This document shows positions 7,924 through 22,159 of a stretch of 46,257 bases of DNA, piece by piece. Each line of letters begins with the position of its first letter. Position 1 is the stretch's first letter. A program made the translations under genes and the position numbers. The stretch covers positions 1 through 46,257 of the forward strand of contig JAOULO010000026.1 in NCBI GenBank assembly GCA_029881995.1. The letters run 5' to 3'. The stretch comes from Gammaproteobacteria bacterium (GTDB lineage Bacteria; Pseudomonadota; Gammaproteobacteria; UBA6429; Thiohalophilaceae). The notes beneath the pieces were generated by a model that had not been told where the DNA came from, ran no database searches, and saw nothing but the letters and a program-made list of their open reading frames with translations.

Positions 7924-8799
7924 CTAGGGTTTGTTTCCACGCCGAAGTTCCGTGTTTTTCATCTGGCTGTATTCCGCCATGGAACCATCATAAAGTCGGA
8001 TATTGGTGTAACCAAGCTTTCGTAGGGTAAAGTAACTGTGCGAAGCACGGTGACCAGATCGGCAATAAACAATAATTTGTTGTTTTTTGTCATTAATCTT
8101 TAGCTGATTGATTCGATTTAATAACGATGAGTCTGACTGTATTTGAAATGCGTCGTTAAAATTGACGTTATCTTCCCAATTCCACCATAAAGCGCCAGGT
8201 ATATGGCCACTACGTTTTTGACGTGGATGTCCGGTATACTCATCTTGACTTCTGACATCGAGTAGAACTTGTTTGGCGTGACTGATATCACTCAGTTTGG
8301 CCAGATTGTCTCGTCCAGATTTAAGGTTTGGTTGATATTGAGTTTTGGGGTAGTTCTTGTGATTGGCAACAACCTTACGGCCCTCAAGAATCCATTTAAC
8401 CAGTCCACCATTCAAGATAGATAGTTTTTGGTGCCCAAGTCTTTCCAGTTCCCAGAACAGCCGTGCTGCATTCAGGCCAGCGGTATCATCATAAATGACG
8501 ATATGCATTGTTGGGTTAATCCCAAGTTGCTCCATGATGGTGGCAATTTTCTGGCTGCCAACACTGACACTAGTTCTTTGACGGGTATGTTGATTGATGG
8601 CGTTATAGGGTAAATGCCTGGCCCCTGGAATATGAAAACGGCTGTATTGCATTGAATCTGACATGTCGATCAAGGCAATTTGTGGGGATTGAAGATTGTT
8701 GGCTAACCAGTCTGTTTCAACAAGGAGTGAGTTTGCCCGAGTTAAGCTTATGCTAAAAGAAAAACATAGAAAAATGATTAAAATCTGAAATTTTGGCAT
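7924..8799 (-). CDS. Periplasmic tandem-rhodanese sulfurtransferase
   Basis: 291 residues with a signal peptide (IIFLCFSFSISLTRA). Two rhodanese domains follow. The N-terminal one carries Asp where the catalytic Cys should be (VIYDDTAGLNAAR), as is normal for tandem enzymes. The C-terminal one has the active loop CRSGHR with Cys246. It should transfer sulfane sulfur from thiosulfate or a related donor to cyanide or a thiol acceptor, outside the cytoplasm. The CRxGxR loop fits thiosulfate:cyanide sulfurtransferases better than mercaptopyruvate enzymes. A role in inorganic sulfur oxidation is likely from the general context but not shown. Confidence 0.88.
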   Translation of the reverse strand: MPKFQILIIFLCFSFSISLTRANSLLVETDWLANNLQSPQIALIDMSDSMQYSRFHIPGARHLPYNAINQHTRQRTSVSVGSQKIATIMEQLGINPTMHIVIYDDTAGLNAARLFWELERLGHQKLSILNGGLVKWILEGRKVVANHKNYPKTQYQPNLKSGRDNLAKLSDISHAKQVLLDVRSQDEYTGHPRQKRSGHIPGALWWNWEDNVNFNDAFQIQSDSSLLNRINQLKINDKKQQIIVYCRSGHRASHSYFTLRKLGYTNIRLYDGSMAEYSQMKNTELRRGNKP

Positions 8800-8942: not shown

Positions 8943-9845
8943 ATGTCTCAGGCCGATCTGGTAAAAACCGCAGATAAATCAATTTCAAACCATGAAATAT
9001 TTGGAAACCTGTTAAAACAGGAGGAAAAACAATTTCTTATGGATCGGGGAATTGTTTGCAGCTACGGTACAGGCCAGGTGATTTGTCAACAAAATGAACG
9101 TAAATCCAGTCTGTATATTGTTTTACTGGGTGAGGTGGAGGTGAATGAAGGTGATGGGCACAACAAAGTTGTTCTTGCCCATCTTGATAAAGGTGAAGTG
9201 TTCGGTGAGATTTCTGCTCTATTTGGTATTCCACGTGTTTCAAATGTTGTAGCCTCCAAGCCAACAGTAGTGCTTGAAATTACAGGTACAATATTTGAAG
9301 AGGTTATTAAAAAAAATCCAACCTTACTTAAAGCTATTGTACAACGGTTCGGTGATCGTATTGTTGAAACGGCCCTGAGAACGATTCCTTTTTTACGGTA
9401 CCTCCCCGTCGATTCATTGCAAAAGCTTATTAGTGAGTCGTCACTGGTTAGTGTAATCCCGGACAATCTGATTGTGAAAGAAGGAGAGCAGGGTGATGCC
9501 ATGTTTATCATTATCCATGGTGCAGCAAAACTCACCCACAACATAAAGGGAGAATCGATTCCACTTGCGATTGCCGGTCCGGGTGACTACTTTGGTGAAT
9601 GGTCAGTGTTAACAGGCGCTCCCAGGACTGCCACAGTAAAGGCATTGTCACATATAGAAATGATCAGAATTGAAAGAAATACCATCCTTGAGTTTATCCA
9701 GGATAACCCGGGTGTTCGTGATCGAATTGATCAAATTGCCCATATGCGACATGACGGAATAATTAAAGAGTACCCTGAAAAAGGTTCTGATAAACAAACC
9801 CGGAAGGTCATCGAGGAAATTAATTCAATTCTGGATAATGATTAA
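8943..9845 (+). CDS. Tandem cyclic-nucleotide-binding domain protein
   Basis: 300 residues with two cNMP-binding (CAP_ED) domains and no DNA-binding or enzymatic domain. The phosphate-binding cassette of domain 1 (84-104) is GEVFGEISALFGIPRVSN, with Gly-Glu and Arg kept but the Ala-Thr after Arg missing. Domain 2 (214-233) is canonical: GDYFGEWSVLTGAPRTATV. The first domain may therefore bind weakly or be structural. The C-terminal 35 residues are charged. An HDOD gene follows after 66 bases, suggesting a signalling pair. Confidence 0.87.
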   Translation: MSQADLVKTADKSISNHEIFGNLLKQEEKQFLMDRGIVCSYGTGQVICQQNERKSSLYIVLLGEVEVNEGDGHNKVVLAHLDKGEVFGEISALFGIPRVSNVVASKPTVVLEITGTIFEEVIKKNPTLLKAIVQRFGDRIVETALRTIPFLRYLPVDSLQKLISESSLVSVIPDNLIVKEGEQGDAMFIIIHGAAKLTHNIKGESIPLAIAGPGDYFGEWSVLTGAPRTATVKALSHIEMIRIERNTILEFIQDNPGVRDRIDQIAHMRHDGIIKEYPEKGSDKQTRKVIEEINSILDND

Positions 9846-9911
9846 TGTATTGAATTAAAATCCGGTATAATCTTTAATATATCTGGAAAGTGTGTTTGAC
9901 GGGAGCAGGTT

Positions 9912-10766
9912 TTGTCTTCACCACTTGAGCAAATCTCAAGTCACTTATTAACCGAGTTTGAAGCGGGGCGTCTTATAGTTCCATCTTTACCCGAAGTGAT
10001 TTCTCGTATCAGTGACGCCATAAATGACAAAAGAAAAGGAACCCAGCAAGTTGCAAAAATCATTCAGCTTGATCCAGGGCTGACAGCCAGATTGATTCAG
10101 ATTGCCAATTCACCTGCTTATCGTAGTTACTTTCCTATTGACTCATGCCAGATGGCAGTCACCCGAATGGGCTTAAGAACAACTCGCAGTATCATTACCG
10201 CTCTTGTATTGCATAATATTTTTAAAATTAAATCTCAGCTTTTACGTAATAGAATGAACAGGCTCTGGCAGCACAGTTGTAATATTGCCGCTATTTGTTA
10301 TGTCCTGGCCCAATTGCACAAGGGTAAGTTAGAACCGGAGAAGGCTTTGCTCGCGGGTTTGGTGCATGACATTGGTGAGCTGCCTGTGTTGCATTATATT
10401 AGTGATTACCCTGACCTGATTGGTTCCGAAAATAATTTGGATGAAATTGTTTCGAGTCTAAAAGGATCGTTGGGTCGGAAGATCCTTCAAAAATGGCAAT
10501 TTAGTACTGATCTAATTGAAGTCCCTGAGTTGGCTGATGAATGGTCCAGGGAAGCCCCTGGTCCGGTAGACTACGTTGATCTGGTCATTGTTGCTCAGGT
10601 GCATGGTTTATTCGGAACGAACCATAGTCAGCAAATCCCACCGTTAGTCGAGCTTCCGGCATTTAATAAAATGTCACTCTCTAAATTGGGGCCTGATGCG
10701 AGTGTTGAACTGCTACATGGAGCTCAGGAGGAGGTTCGGAAAATGCTCAATATACTGGTAAACTAA
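9912..10766 (+). CDS. HDOD domain protein
   Basis: 284 residues from a TTG start with GGGAGCAGG upstream; no ATG fits the family start. It has the HDOD signature: LPSLPEV-like VPSLPEVISRI, then VAKIIQLDPGLTARLIQIANS, and a residual HD pair in LVHDIGELP (His152-Asp153). HDOD proteins are signalling scaffolds, often linked to c-di-GMP, stress or motility control, and usually lack phosphodiesterase activity. It follows the tandem cNMP protein on the same strand. Confidence 0.88.
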   Translation: MSSPLEQISSHLLTEFEAGRLIVPSLPEVISRISDAINDKRKGTQQVAKIIQLDPGLTARLIQIANSPAYRSYFPIDSCQMAVTRMGLRTTRSIITALVLHNIFKIKSQLLRNRMNRLWQHSCNIAAICYVLAQLHKGKLEPEKALLAGLVHDIGELPVLHYISDYPDLIGSENNLDEIVSSLKGSLGRKILQKWQFSTDLIEVPELADEWSREAPGPVDYVDLVIVAQVHGLFGTNHSQQIPPLVELPAFNKMSLSKLGPDASVELLHGAQEEVRKMLNILVN

Positions 10767-14241: not shown

Positions 14242-14369
14242 ATTCTATTAATATTCTTAAATTGGTTAAAATTCATCCTGTTTCTGAGTTTTAACCTTAA
14301 TTTGTGAATCTTTTCCTCTAACGGGTGTTTACCCGGGATGCCTATACAGGGTATTAATGATTCTGATTA

Positions 14370-15572
14370 ATGCCTCGGGGAAGAGTCAGGACATTGGCGA
14401 ATAAAGACACCACAAGCATTGAGCAACTAAAAGGCCTGGAGCCTTTATCAACTTTGTCAGATGAACGTCTGGAAGAGTTGCTTCCCTTAACTGAAATTAA
14501 ATTTCTGGCAATTGGTCAGAGTTTGTTTCGGGAAGGAGATGTAGATAACCAACTGGTGTATTTACTCAATGGGGATGTTAGGGTTCATTCTTCTGACGAT
14601 AAGTTAGACACGGTAATATCGCATAAAACCAGGGAAGCTTGCTTTCCCCTTGATGATAGTCAGCCCCATATGATGTCAGGTACAGCGCTTGGTAAAGTCA
14701 TAGCCCTGTATATCGATAACAGTGTGCTGGATTATCTGATGATGTGGGATCAGATGGCGATTGAAGATAGTCTGATGAATTCAGTCGAAAATTTATTACC
14801 AGAAGAAGCTGGACAGTCAGAACCTCTATCATTCATTGATACCATCACACTTCACGAGCCTGTTTCACCAAGTTATCATGATCTAGATACACCGGAACAT
14901 CAAAACTGGATACGTCGCATGCGACAGGTGATGGCTTTTCGTAATTTACCCCCTGCCAATTTAAGAACCTTACTGGATAGAATGGAGACGGTGGACGTCA
15001 AGGCAGGTGATGTGATTGTCAAACAGGGTGAGCAAGGTGATTACTATTATGTTCTAACTGATGGTAAAGCCCGTGTCACACAAAGTGTAGAGTTGGCCAG
15101 TTTGGGAGGCGGAGACAGTTTTGGGGAAGAGGCGCTTATCTCGGGCGCTACCCGTAATGCGACTGTGATCATGCAGGAAGATGGCCAGTTAATGCGCCTA
15201 TCAAAGCAGGATTTTAATTCGTTGTTAAAGGAACCAATGCTAAAACGTCTATCAGCAGAAGAGGCTCAACAAAGAATTAAACAGGGAGCCTGCTGGCTGG
15301 ATGTTCGCTATGCACGGGAGCATCACCATCAACGGTTGCCTGGTTCAATTAATATTCCATTACACGAGTTACGTTCACGGTTGGAAGAGCTGGATAAGTC
15401 AATTCATTACATCTGTTATTGTGGCACGGGTAGAAGGAGTTCGGCGGCAGCGTTTTTGTTGTCACAGAAGGGATTTATAGCCAGTGTTCTAAATGGTGGA
15501 ATCCAGATACTGGCGGGAGACAAGCTTTCAGCCGGGCGGCCAGCTAAAAGACCGGCCACCGAGGAGGTGTAG
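14370..15572 (+). CDS. cNMP-binding / cNMP-binding / rhodanese fusion protein
   Basis: 400 residues and no signal peptide, so cytoplasmic. Residues of about 25-130 form a degenerate cNMP-binding fold ([20 protein letters not shown]) with no phosphate-binding cassette. Residues of about 190-285 form an intact cNMP domain with [19 protein letters not shown]. Residues of about 285-380 are a rhodanese domain ([27 protein letters not shown]) with active loop CGTGRR, Cys351. It joins nucleotide sensing to sulfane-sulfur chemistry in one chain. The start is uncertain (ATG 14370 or TTG 14394). The last 45 bases overlap the convergent HIT gene. Confidence 0.9.
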
Positions 15573-16971: not shown

Positions 16972-18063
16972 TTATAAAAATAATGTCAGTACACCGGTAT
17001 AACCATAGAGGTGGTGTCCGGCAATTTCACCATTGGCATAAAAGCCCACCAGGGGAACATCGCCAAGTTGTTCCTGAATCAGCTGCATTTCTTTTGATAC
17101 TTCACCAAACATATGTTGGCCTCGGCCCATGCAACTGAAATAGAGACCACCTCGAGGTTCACCTGTCAGGCGCTGTTTGATATGGGTCAGCATACGTTTG
17201 AGATCATCCACGGCCGTTTTACCGTCCCGACGACAGAACATGATGGGTGCCCCGGTTTGTAAATACTCACCAATGGCCAGTACACCATTGTCCGGGTCAG
17301 TACCAATGAGGTTTCTGACCATGTAATCACCCGTATCACTGCCACTGATAGGGAAACCGGCAAAGATATAACCTCCAATCCGATTTAGATCGCGGGCCAG
17401 AATTTCACCTATGTCTTCTTTTAAGACATCCAGTGCTGGGCGATGATCAAGACTGACAGCATAATTCCCTTCACATTCGGTAATACTGTGGGTGGGACCG
17501 ATAGGGGAACAGCCCTGTGTCAGTCCAGAAACAACAGGGATGTTGTCTGAAAGTACGACCCCAGAGAGTTGGCCTTCACAGATCTCATCAGCCAGTTGGT
17601 AATAATAACTATTAGAGGAGGTCAGCCCACCTACCAGATAGGCGTCACCCAGTTTTTCAGTCAGACCATCGATCAGATCGGGTAGCTGACCATTACGGGG
17701 GTCACCATGCATCACACCAAATTGCAGGCCAGGCTTGGGTTGACTCGACAATTCATCGGGTGAGGTAATGAGATAAAAATGCTCTTGTGGAAAATCAGCC
17801 AGCATCATTACCATGGCCGGTTCTTCATAATATTCCTTGCCGGTGCAACAGACCGCATGACCAATCGTTCCGGTCCAATGAGTGACGCCGGTTTTTTCCA
17901 TCAGCTCACGTTTAATGCGTGCCATATCAGCGGCATAAAAGTCGGTCACATATAAAAAGCCCAACTGGTAATCAGCAGTCACCTTACCGAGTTGTTGCAG
18001 ACAACTGTCAACAGCCTGTTGCCAACTGGCATCACTGGCATGGGCAAGTTTAAATGTTTTCAT
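16972..18063 (-). CDS. FIST N/C domain sensory protein
   Basis: 363 residues with FIST_N (about 30-215, with TGTIGHAVCCTGKEYYEEPA and DAYLVGGLTSS) and FIST_C (about 225-345, ending GFYANGEIAGHHLYGYTGVLTLF). These domains are thought to bind small ligands such as amino acids and usually feed signalling pathways; here the protein stands alone with no kinase or cyclase domain. The gene heads a probable FIST/aldo-keto reductase/HIT transcript, and a terminator separates it from phosphoribulokinase upstream. Confidence 0.9.
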   Translation of the reverse strand: MKTFKLAHASDASWQQAVDSCLQQLGKVTADYQLGFLYVTDFYAADMARIKRELMEKTGVTHWTGTIGHAVCCTGKEYYEEPAMVMMLADFPQEHFYLITSPDELSSQPKPGLQFGVMHGDPRNGQLPDLIDGLTEKLGDAYLVGGLTSSNSYYYQLADEICEGQLSGVVLSDNIPVVSGLTQGCSPIGPTHSITECEGNYAVSLDHRPALDVLKEDIGEILARDLNRIGGYIFAGFPISGSDTGDYMVRNLIGTDPDNGVLAIGEYLQTGAPIMFCRRDGKTAVDDLKRMLTHIKQRLTGEPRGGLYFSCMGRGQHMFGEVSKEMQLIQEQLGDVPLVGFYANGEIAGHHLYGYTGVLTLFL

Positions 18064-18173: not shown

Positions 18174-19064
18174 TTATTTGGCTTTTTTCTTTTTCTCGAT
18201 CAGTTCGTGAATTACAGGATTCAGAATCAGTTCCATGGCAAAGCCCATCTTACCACCGGGTACAACCAGAGTATTAGGACGTGACATGAAGGAATCCTGG
18301 ATCATGTTCTGTAGGTAGGGGAAGTCCACACCTTTAGGATCACGGAAACGAATGACAATAAAGCTCTCATCCGGGGTTGGGATATCACGAGCGATGAATG
18401 GGTTGGATGTATCAACAGTCGGTACTCGTTGGAAGTTGATATCGGTACGTGAGAACTGTGGGGTAATGTAGTTCACATAGTCTTCCATACGACGCAGGAT
18501 CGTGTCGACAATAGCTTCGGCAGAATAGCCACGCTCTGCATTATCACGATGGATTTTCTGGATCCACTCAAGATTGACGATAGGAACAACGCCCACCAGC
18601 AAATCAACAAACTTGCTCACATCGTGGTTACTATCCTTGGCACCACCATGCAGACCTTCGTAGAAAAGCAGATCAGTATCTTCAACAATCTCTTCCCATG
18701 GCGTGAACTGGCCTGGGTTTAAGGAAGTACCAAGACGGGCATTATGTTCTTCGGCTTCTTCATCTGAGTGCAGATAGTAACGACGTTTACATTTGCCAGA
18801 TTTGCCATAAGACTCGAATGTTTCACTCAGCAGATCAAAGTGGTTTGAGTTGGAACCAAAGTGGCTGAGGTTTTTACCTTCATTCTGGAAGGCCTCGATC
18901 TGCTTTTTCATTTCAGCGCGATCAAAGCGATGATAGCTGTCACCTTCAACGATCAGAGGGTTAATCTGCTCACGGAAGAAGATGTGCTCGAAGGCGCGTT
19001 TAACTGTTGTTGTGCCGGCACCGGAAGAACCTGTGACCGCAATAACCGGATGTTTGGCTGACAT
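18174..19064 (-). CDS. prkB: Phosphoribulokinase (bacterial class I)
   Basis: 296 residues. The P-loop GSSGAGTTT (residues 12-20) is characteristic, as are EGDSYHRFDRAEMK, HFGSNSNHFDLL, LFYEGLHGG and PIVNLEWIQKIHRD. It phosphorylates ribulose 5-phosphate to RuBP for Rubisco, the Calvin-cycle marker in this window. Size and motifs match the octameric proteobacterial class, which is activated by NADH. It stands alone between terminators, with no cbb genes beside it; a Lys-rich tail ends the protein. Confidence 0.96.
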   Translation of the reverse strand: MSAKHPVIAVTGSSGAGTTTVKRAFEHIFFREQINPLIVEGDSYHRFDRAEMKKQIEAFQNEGKNLSHFGSNSNHFDLLSETFESYGKSGKCKRRYYLHSDEEAEEHNARLGTSLNPGQFTPWEEIVEDTDLLFYEGLHGGAKDSNHDVSKFVDLLVGVVPIVNLEWIQKIHRDNAERGYSAEAIVDTILRRMEDYVNYITPQFSRTDINFQRVPTVDTSNPFIARDIPTPDESFIVIRFRDPKGVDFPYLQNMIQDSFMSRPNTLVVPGGKMGFAMELILNPVIHELIEKKKKAK

Positions 19065-20564: not shown

Positions 20565-20812
20565 GAGATTACCTGCTCAGTTGGTCTAAATGTGCCCCGA
20601 ATCTGATTTGGGATATCCAGGGGCGCTTATTTTGCAATTTCAGGGTGTTGAATGCAAAGGCAATATTTGTGTCTGGGGAGTAGTGCAGCAGAGTGTCTGC
20701 TATTTGGTACTTAAAGACAAAAGCTATAAATGATATATCGTTACACTATACTATGAACTTCACGCTTGGAATTTAATTCGGTAAATTGTCTTCATATAAA
20801 ATAAAAAGGTTT

Positions 20813-22159
20813 ATGTCCTTGTTTTTCAAAACCCTTCGCTGGTTATTTGGTTTATTCTTATTACTGCTGGTCCTGTATGGTCTTGGCCGCCTATTACATA
20901 TTGCACAGGACAGCCTGTACATAGGTGAACGTGCGTCCTATTTGCAACTTGCATCTCACAGTCAGATGACGGTTCGCTGGCAATCCATTAAATCCTATCA
21001 GGGAGAACTTAGATATGGTCCGTCCCCTGATAAGCTTGATGGGCGTGTTAGTGAAGTACGAAACACTAACTTGCATGAAATTACTATCAGAAATTTGAAA
21101 GCCATGACACGTTACTATTATCGTTATGGCATCAAGGGAGATGACAAAAGCTCAGGTCAGACTCACTGGTTTGTTACTTCACCGGAGATGGGTTCAGAAA
21201 AATCCACTCGCTTCTGGGTACTCGGTGACCCTGGGCTGGCCATTCCAGGTCAGACAAAAGTCAGGAACGCTGCACTTGAGTGGTTAAAATCCAATAAACG
21301 CCCTGGTCGAGCAGACCTCGATATCCTGTTAACAACAGGAGATAACGCCTACAAGTCAGGAACAAATGAAGAGTTTCAGAAACATTTTTTTGAACCCTTT
21401 AAAACCATTTTGAGTAATGTTCCGGTATGGCCGGTTTTTGGTAATCATGATGCAAGGCGTTGGAGCTTTTTCAGAATATTTTCATTTCCGACTCAGGGTG
21501 AAGCAGGTGGTGTCCCTTCGGGTACGGAGCACTATTACTCTTTTGATTATGGTTCAGTACACTTTGTGGTACTTGACTCACATGCCTCAAGATGGAACAA
21601 CAACCGGGAAATGGTTAAATGGCTCCGTAAAGATTTAATCGCGAATCGACTTCCATGGGTGATTAGCCTGTTTCACCACCCACCCTATTCCAAAGGATCA
21701 CATAATTCAGATAGTCAGCGTGATAGTCGGGGCAGAATGTTCGAAATGCGTGAGAATGTTTTACCTGTGCTAGAAGAGCATGGTGTTGATCTTGTTTTAA
21801 ATGGTCATAGCCATATGTATGAACGATCTTTTCTGATTGATTGTCATTATGGAAATTCACAAAGCATAAAAAAGTCCATGATACTAAGTCGTAACAAACA
21901 GCATTATGTTAAGCGTAGTATCGGGAAAGGAAAACATGAAGGGACGATATATGCTGTTGTGGGTTCTTCAGCAAGGGCAGATCATGGCCCAATGGATCAT
22001 CCTGTGATGGCAGAATCTTTGATGGAAACCGGATCACTAGTTGTCGATGTTGTCAGAAATCGTCTTGATGCACGCTTTATTTCAGGTGAAGGACTGATTG
22101 CCGATCATTTTTCGATCACCAAGGGTGTTAATAATGCAACGGTTAATGGTTGTGAATAA
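20813..22159 (+). CDS. Membrane-anchored purple-acid-phosphatase-like metallophosphoesterase
   Basis: 448 residues from the ATG at 20813, which has AAGG upstream; a TTG at 20786 is the alternative. The N-terminus has one transmembrane helix (LFGLFLLLLVLYGLG), then a fibronectin-like domain (TVRWQSIKSYQGELRYG to LKAMTRYYYRYGI) as in purple acid phosphatases. The metal-binding blocks follow: VLGDPG, TTGDNAY, FGNHDA, LFHHPPYS and NGHSHMYER. It should hydrolyse phosphate esters at the periplasmic face; the substrate is unknown. It is divergent from purD and followed by galE. Confidence 0.87.
   Translation: MSLFFKTLRWLFGLFLLLLVLYGLGRLLHIAQDSLYIGERASYLQLASHSQMTVRWQSIKSYQGELRYGPSPDKLDGRVSEVRNTNLHEITIRNLKAMTRYYYRYGIKGDDKSSGQTHWFVTSPEMGSEKSTRFWVLGDPGLAIPGQTKVRNAALEWLKSNKRPGRADLDILLTTGDNAYKSGTNEEFQKHFFEPFKTILSNVPVWPVFGNHDARRWSFFRIFSFPTQGEAGGVPSGTEHYYSFDYGSVHFVVLDSHASRWNNNREMVKWLRKDLIANRLPWVISLFHHPPYSKGSHNSDSQRDSRGRMFEMRENVLPVLEEHGVDLVLNGHSHMYERSFLIDCHYGNSQSIKKSMILSRNKQHYVKRSIGKGKHEGTIYAVVGSSARADHGPMDHPVMAESLMETGSLVVDVVRNRLDARFISGEGLIADHFSITKGVNNATVNGCE

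Follow-up and report, generated by a model that had tools for sequence, protein, structure and literature searches.

A widespread gammaproteobacterial protein family joining tandem cyclic nucleotide-binding domains to a rhodanese: a candidate link between cyclic nucleotides and sulfur transfer

Background

What might be the role of a protein carrying two cyclic nucleotide-binding (CNB) domains and a rhodanese in a single chain, and which bacteria possess it? This question is raised by a gene on contig JAOULO010000026.1 of a gammaproteobacterial genome (assembly GCA_029881995.1), positions 1 to 46,257 of which, the whole stretch of DNA analysed, are referred to below as the window. Fusions of a CNB domain with a rhodanese homology domain in bacterial chains, as in the window protein, were listed in 2007 in the "Other_bacterial" group of Kannan et al. 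(PMC2246266). In the excerpts of that paper that were available, the combination is only listed, with no subfamily, residues or function, whereas the family described here possesses tandem CNB domains, a nearly fixed junction, a characteristic Asn and several paralogue groups. A search of open-licence PMC papers found no functional study of a CNB-rhodanese fusion and no function for the family, a large and conserved one in which the window protein is an ordinary member; the present work adds the pattern of conserved residues across the family, the description of the junction, the groups of paralogues and the contexts in signalling gene clusters.

Results and discussion

The fusion gene and its product

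The orf was found exactly where a sequence-only reading had placed it, at nt 14370-15572 on the forward strand, running from ATG to stop and encoding 400 aa. No clear ribosome-binding site precedes the ATG at nt 14370, and an alternative in-frame start, TTG at nt 14394, would bring the N-terminus somewhat nearer to the length of the orthologues, whose start codons were picked by script in this comparison; the start codon is uncertain, and the domains are unaffected by the choice. Scans around the gene gave 5 promoters versus 4.2 expected from shuffled sequences (no excess) and 3 terminators versus 2.0 expected (little excess). The gene is real and not a chance reading frame, since its sequence and its position are both conserved among relatives. 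Its product is predicted to be cytoplasmic, because no signal peptide was evident by eye; the structure model contained no membrane segments.

The domain content proposed from the sequence, namely a degenerate CNB1, an intact CNB2 and a rhodanese whose catalytic loop is complete, all in one chain, was borne out by Pfam and by the models. Pfam cNMP_binding (PF00027) matched at 6.8e-26 (90.5 bits versus a curated cut-off of 27.5), with two stretches at E <= 0.1, the best being residues 209-287, and Rhodanese (PF00581) matched residues 295-379 at 9.6e-15 (55.3 bits versus a cut-off of 22.2). The full-chain AlphaFold2 model, for which a 30-row alignment served as input, had a mean pLDDT of 84.1 and a pTM of 0.67.

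CNB1 (about residues 17-140, nt 14418-14789, forward strand), delimited by the models and by fold comparison, ends in a long helix (residues 117-140) and reached a pLDDT of 87.8 when modelled alone. Its best fold match was DNR (2z69; Z 13.8, rmsd 2.1, 109 residues aligned), and the Z scores of PKG I and FNR were less than one unit away; the CNB fold is present, and the canonical phosphate-binding cassette is absent. A linker follows (residues 141-173, nt 14790-14888), with low model confidence (AlphaFold2 pLDDT below 50 at residues 147-171) and a median identity of 11% in the clade of the window protein, and is probably flexible. CNB2 (residues 175-290, nt 14892-15239), intact by Pfam and fold, was nearest in structure to cAMP-bound PKA RI-alpha (3pna; Z 17.6, rmsd 2.5, 124 residues aligned), a match tied with that to PKG carrying cGMP or its analogues. 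The rhodanese (residues 292-380, nt 15243-15509) is joined to CNB2 without a linker, and its fold matched 3gk5 (Z 17.2, rmsd 1.4, 96 residues aligned) and 8a56 (Z 17.2, rmsd 1.3, 94 residues aligned). In the window's own clade of 19 rows, conservation is highest in the rhodanese, with a median identity of 64% compared with 60% for CNB2 and 52% for CNB1.

The tandem CNB arrangement is shared with the PKA regulatory subunit and PKG, to whose CNB domains CNB2 is also nearest by structure. The fusion differs from the PKA regulatory subunit in lacking two functional cassettes, CNB1 having no Glu and, in the window protein, no Arg, and from both PKA and PKG in that a rhodanese follows CNB2 and no kinase domain is present in the chain. 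The sensor fold is likewise shared with transcription factors of the CRP/FNR family, in which a DNA-binding domain takes the place that the rhodanese has here; identity as a CRP-type regulator was rejected, as no helix-turn-helix domain was matched by Pfam up to E 0.1. With the single-domain rhodaneses PspE and GlpE, and with the corresponding domain of CoA-persulfide reductase (8a56), the window rhodanese shares the fold and the six-residue Cys loop (NCBIfam PspE at 3.8e-10, below its cut-off), the difference being its fusion to tandem CNB domains. According to the available parts of PMC8346489, shells of Family 2B encapsulins carry a CNB domain and rhodaneses are enriched accessory genes in Family 2A desulfurase operons. 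Membership of the encapsulins was rejected, since the model encap_f2b covered only residues 183-293, the CNB part, at 43.5 bits versus a cut-off of 400, and no HK97-type shell domain was matched by Pfam in the fusion protein.

Conserved residues and the CNB2-rhodanese junction

Profile searches of the fetched loci gave 132 hits, 130 of them full length; the 108 distinct sequences among these were divided by tail length into 73 short forms (less than 100 aa beyond the profile match) and 35 long forms. In the CNB2 phosphate-binding cassette (residues 251-266, nt 15120-15167), F251 and G252 were kept in all 108 members, E253 in 106 (71/73 short and 35/35 long forms), and R262 and N263 in 105 each (in both cases 73/73 short and 32/35 long forms); E253, R262 and N263 were all invariant in the 30-row alignment. 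A motif scan found Asn after the cassette Arg in 102/102 family matches and in 0/9 other matches at the same loci, some of which are perhaps not CNB domains. In the excerpt available of Table 1 of PMC2246266, the residue at this position is Thr, Ser, Gly or Lys when the PKA and PKG rows are left aside. Judged by these sequences, Asn263 is unusual. At the corresponding position of CNB1 (residues 92-104, nt 14643-14681), the loop is short and without Glu, reading QPR in most of the family and QPH in the window protein; position 100 is R in 96/108 members and H in 8/108, the His being shared by the window protein and a relative of the same genus.

Cys351 lies, as had been read from the sequence, in the rhodanese active loop CGTGRR (residues 351-356, nt 15420-15437). 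All 73 short forms possess Cys351, Arg356, Asp311 and Arg313 together and show no gaps in the loop. Among the 35 long forms, Cys351 and Arg356 are each kept in 30, and the five without Cys all have Ser in its place; four of these five fall in one clade of five, and four of the five keep the cassette Glu and Arg, the exception (L127) having Lys for Arg. With Ser for Cys351 in 5/35 long forms, the rhodanese cannot serve as the usual catalyst in part of the family, which argues that catalysis is dispensable there while the CNB cassette is kept.

The junction is nearly fixed. In 106/108 members the last CNB2 helix has P289 at its end, and the stretch from this residue to Asp311 in the rhodanese spans 23 residues in 86/108 and 24 in 20/108. 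In the model, the CNB2 helix 279-290 is followed directly by elements of the rhodanese, to which the next helix (296-304) belongs. PKA and CRP have a separate lid helix over the nucleotide; no such helix was seen in the fusion protein model. Given the nearly constant P289-D311 length, the join looks rigid rather than like a flexible tether.

Paralogues and long-tailed relatives

In a FastTree tree of the 108 members, the window protein fell in a clade of 19 rows with full support (SH-like values only). Every row of this clade with a known family label belongs to the family of the host; the named metagenome genomes there carry no such label. The host genome encodes three full-length members, the window protein included. 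One paralogue, of 347 aa (L033:6127-7170), keeps the Cys; the other, of 912 aa (L032:5230-7968), has the loop SNNKDD, with Ser for Cys351, and probably contains a coiled coil and a membrane helix, as judged by eye.

The 912-aa paralogue lies directly downstream of a row of genes (L032:70-5058) which, judged by their sequences, appear to encode two TPR proteins, an ExbB/TolQ-like, two ExbD-like and a TonB-like protein. This cluster resembles the core of the Agl/Glt machinery, as described in the accessible parts of PMC3169522; according to the same source, such a core outside Myxococcales and Bdellovibrionales holds an additional gene without a homologue in those groups. A general link of long forms to TolQ/ExbB-ExbD-TonB clusters was rejected, as only this locus and one other (L035) showed it, 2/34 long forms, several loci being short or cut by contig ends.

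An FGE-sulfatase-like domain (PF03781) ends 3/13 long forms scanned (L038:4951-9345, L110:8923-14571 and L117:8087-12055). At six further loci (L121, L122, L125, L126, L040 and L120), two neighbouring genes, in tandem or divergent, each encode a CNB-CNB-rhodanese chain with a tail of about 275-920 aa; the 6 tails scanned of these 12 gave no Pfam match up to 0.01.

Distribution of the family

With a full-length profile, the architecture was found in 169/370 genomes drawn evenly from the class. At E <= 1e-20, 173 genomes matched; the four weak ones (G165, 4.1e-45; G273, 9.9e-29; G362, 6.1e-21; G372, 1.1e-26) were dropped and counted among the 201 non-carriers, the weakest one kept being G400 at 2.2e-60. 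Some match was obtained in 57 of 58 relatives, many of these to single domains only. In a phylum-wide draw of 299 genomes, 17 matched at 1e-60, 13 from the same class and 4 from outside it. These counts show that the fusion family is common across gammaproteobacteria. Plasmid carriage was rejected: of 199 plasmid records returned by tblastn, one had a place aligned over 80% of the query, with an identity of 24.7%, and none resembled the fusion.

The host itself possesses soxB and dsrA, along with 27 rhodanese-domain matches, and restriction of the fusion to sulfur oxidisers had been put forward as a point to check. SoxB matches were found in 96/169 carriers versus 66/201 non-carriers, an enrichment given without correction for shared ancestry, and 73/169 carrier genomes had no SoxB match, other routes of sulfur oxidation being possible there. 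Common in the class and found in these 73 genomes, the fusion is not a mark of sulfur oxidisers. The sequence-only reading had named, as evidence that would speak against it, a common housekeeping form with known function; the commonness of the fusion is evident from the 169/370 genomes, while open-licence PMC papers yielded no known function.

Cyclases as a possible source of ligand

Class III cyclase (PF00211) matches were present in 151/169 carriers versus 82/201 non-carriers, and among genomes without class III, class I cyclase (PF01295) was found in 15/18 carriers versus 6/119 non-carriers. Taken together, a class I or III cyclase was encoded by 166/169 carriers versus 88/201 non-carriers, counts that carry no correction for shared ancestry, and in genomes of at least 2.5 Mb, a split based on genome sizes hand-copied from the result tables, by 144/146 carriers versus 60/96 non-carriers. 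Neither class was found in the carrier genomes G111, G249 and G390. What the association shows is a nearly constant source of ligand in carriers, rather than binding by the protein.

The host genome has four class III cyclase matches, none of them on the window contig. One is a CHASE2-cyclase on contig C116, three genes from the 347-aa paralogue and within 5 kb of it; another match (C16:45812-46327) lies about 1.8 kb beyond the gene of the 912-aa paralogue, at the limit of the DNA fetched for that locus; it was found by a separate search. Cyclases as general neighbours were rejected, since phmmer found class III cyclase only at L033 and L072 (= L061) among 126 fetched loci with a family member, the flanks being short.

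Gene neighbourhood

Both neighbours that had been cited from the window are present: a tandem-CNB gene at nt 8943-9845 (cNMP_binding, 3.1e-39, two stretches) and, at nt 7924-8799 on the minus strand, a two-domain rhodanese gene (1.7e-38, two stretches), the product of which has an N-terminus that looks like a signal peptide by eye. Among 19 loci from relatives, an SH3-domain gene lies upstream of the fusion, as in the window, in 15 and a HIT gene downstream in 10. Nine have an extra HDOD-type gene between the SH3 gene and the fusion (one Pfam-checked, L014); it is on the minus strand, encodes about 450-525 aa, and is absent from the corresponding place in the window (nt 14242-14369). The tandem-CNB gene was seen in 6/19, a count limited by the many loci that do not extend that far. 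In the window, it encodes 300 aa and is followed by an HDOD protein gene (nt 8943-10766 for the two), and in several relatives the two are again found close to the fusion.

Across the class, 48 loci with short forms, mostly from top-scoring matches and not a random sample, had neighbouring clusters that differed by subgroup. By BLAST clusters, GAF-HD genes were found at 10 loci, CHASE2 genes at 8 (6 kinase and 2 cyclase), PP2C at 7 and FHA at 5, together with AmtB at 9 and fadB-like genes at 7, the last two named from their sequences. Pfam confirmed kinase neighbours at L086 and L088, cyclases at L033 and L072, PP2C at L086, FHA at L099, and GAF plus HD_5, which we take to be of the HD-GYP type, at L099, L086 and L044; the other neighbours were assigned by BLAST cluster, and CHASE2 kinases were told from CHASE2 cyclases by their C-terminal sequence. 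At seven loci (L086, L088, L095, L099, L101, L102 and L104), short forms lie beside CHASE2-Ser/Thr kinase, PP2C, FHA and GAF-HD genes in varying combinations, no CHASE2-kinase being seen in L099. Such loci are a possible bacterial PKA-like module.

Proposed function and alternatives

The reading of the whole chain that we favour, at a rough probability of 0.45, is a receptor of the PKA regulatory-subunit type, responsive to cAMP or cGMP, with the rhodanese rigidly coupled to CNB2. As its conservation suggests, the canonical cassette of CNB2 would bind a cyclic purine nucleotide, with cAMP and cGMP the likeliest candidates, and CNB1, in which the fold is kept and the cassette lost, would probably act as a dimerisation, docking or inhibitory module. 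The rhodanese would take the place of the lid helix, directly after CNB2 helix 279-290, and might itself cover the nucleotide. Since no separate lid helix intervenes and the rhodanese follows CNB2 at that place, ligand binding would be expected to move or expose it and to switch its activity in transferring or accepting sulfur, or its interaction with a partner. In the host, with its soxB and dsrA, the likely effect would be second-messenger control over a cytoplasmic sulfane-sulfur step. For the separate parts, sulfurtransferase competence seems probable and binding of cAMP or cGMP likely, while the coupling of the two has a little under an even chance. Nucleotide-gated sulfur transfer, as suggested by the sequence-only reading, is thus a fair hypothesis in view of the domain content, the conserved catalytic residues, the rhodanese being the most conserved domain, and the cyclases encoded by nearly all carriers.

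The order of cause and effect is not given by sequence, and the relationship might be reversed, with the rhodanese as the sensor: uptake of sulfane sulfur by Cys351, or its oxidation, would change how tightly the cyclic nucleotide is bound, or how the two CNB domains interact with, for example, a Ser/Thr kinase, a phosphatase or a cyclase. A single-domain rhodanese without a fused acceptor enzyme would suit this role, as would the signalling clusters at short-form loci (CHASE2-kinase, GAF-HD, PP2C and FHA at 6, 10, 7 and 5 of the 48, with 2, 3, 1 and 1 Pfam-checked); however, the neighbours scanned around the window gene do not make up such a cluster and no partner was found, and we consider the reversal rather unlikely. 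Alternatively, the rhodanese could be a protein-binding module in a cyclic-nucleotide-responsive adaptor, sulfur chemistry being incidental. The long forms speak for such a scaffold, with Ser for Cys351 in five of them, mostly in a single clade and with the CNB2 cassette mostly kept, and with extra tails that include the FGE-sulfatase-like ends, but a mere scaffold would have no need of the Cys351 and Arg356 kept in 73/73 short forms, and this explanation appears unlikely.

A different doubt concerns the ligand: like CooA, CNB2 could bind a molecule that is not a cyclic nucleotide, making the protein a redox or metabolite sensor. DNR (Z 13.8) and FNR (Z 13.0), which are not known as cyclic-nucleotide sensors, are among the structures nearest to CNB1, tied with many others. 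Asn263, in differing from the cassettes in the excerpted Table 1 of PMC2246266, is unusual enough that a ligand different from cAMP and cGMP may be bound. Against a ligand outside the cyclic nucleotides stand the Glu and Arg of the CNB2 cassette (106/108 and 105/108) and the nearly constant presence of a cyclase in carriers, and we consider it very improbable.

Should the favoured receptor with a ligand-gated rhodanese prove correct, a single protein would connect cyclic nucleotides directly to sulfane-sulfur metabolism; should the protein act with the kinase cluster instead, bacteria would have an analogue of PKA regulation. A broader and frankly speculative proposal, unlikely to hold in full, is that of a widespread family in which a PKA-R-like tandem CNB welded to a rhodanese couples cyclic-nucleotide signalling to sulfane-sulfur chemistry. 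In several lineages it would act together with a membrane CHASE2 Ser/Thr kinase, PP2C and FHA proteins as the bacterial equivalent of the PKA module; in the long forms, the switch would have been moved onto other outputs, such as coiled-coil membrane proteins and FGE-type domains, in some cases after loss of the Cys.

Other genes near the fusion in the window

Downstream of the fusion gene, in the conserved neighbourhood, nt 16972-18063 encode a FIST-domain protein (PF08495, PF10442), which is adjoined by a gene of the phosphoribulokinase/uridine kinase family at nt 18174-19064. About 5 kb from the fusion, nt 20786-22159 encode a metallophosphoesterase-like protein with a weak NCBIfam match (3.9e-06, far short of the cut-off) to SpdA, a cyclic-nucleotide phosphodiesterase.
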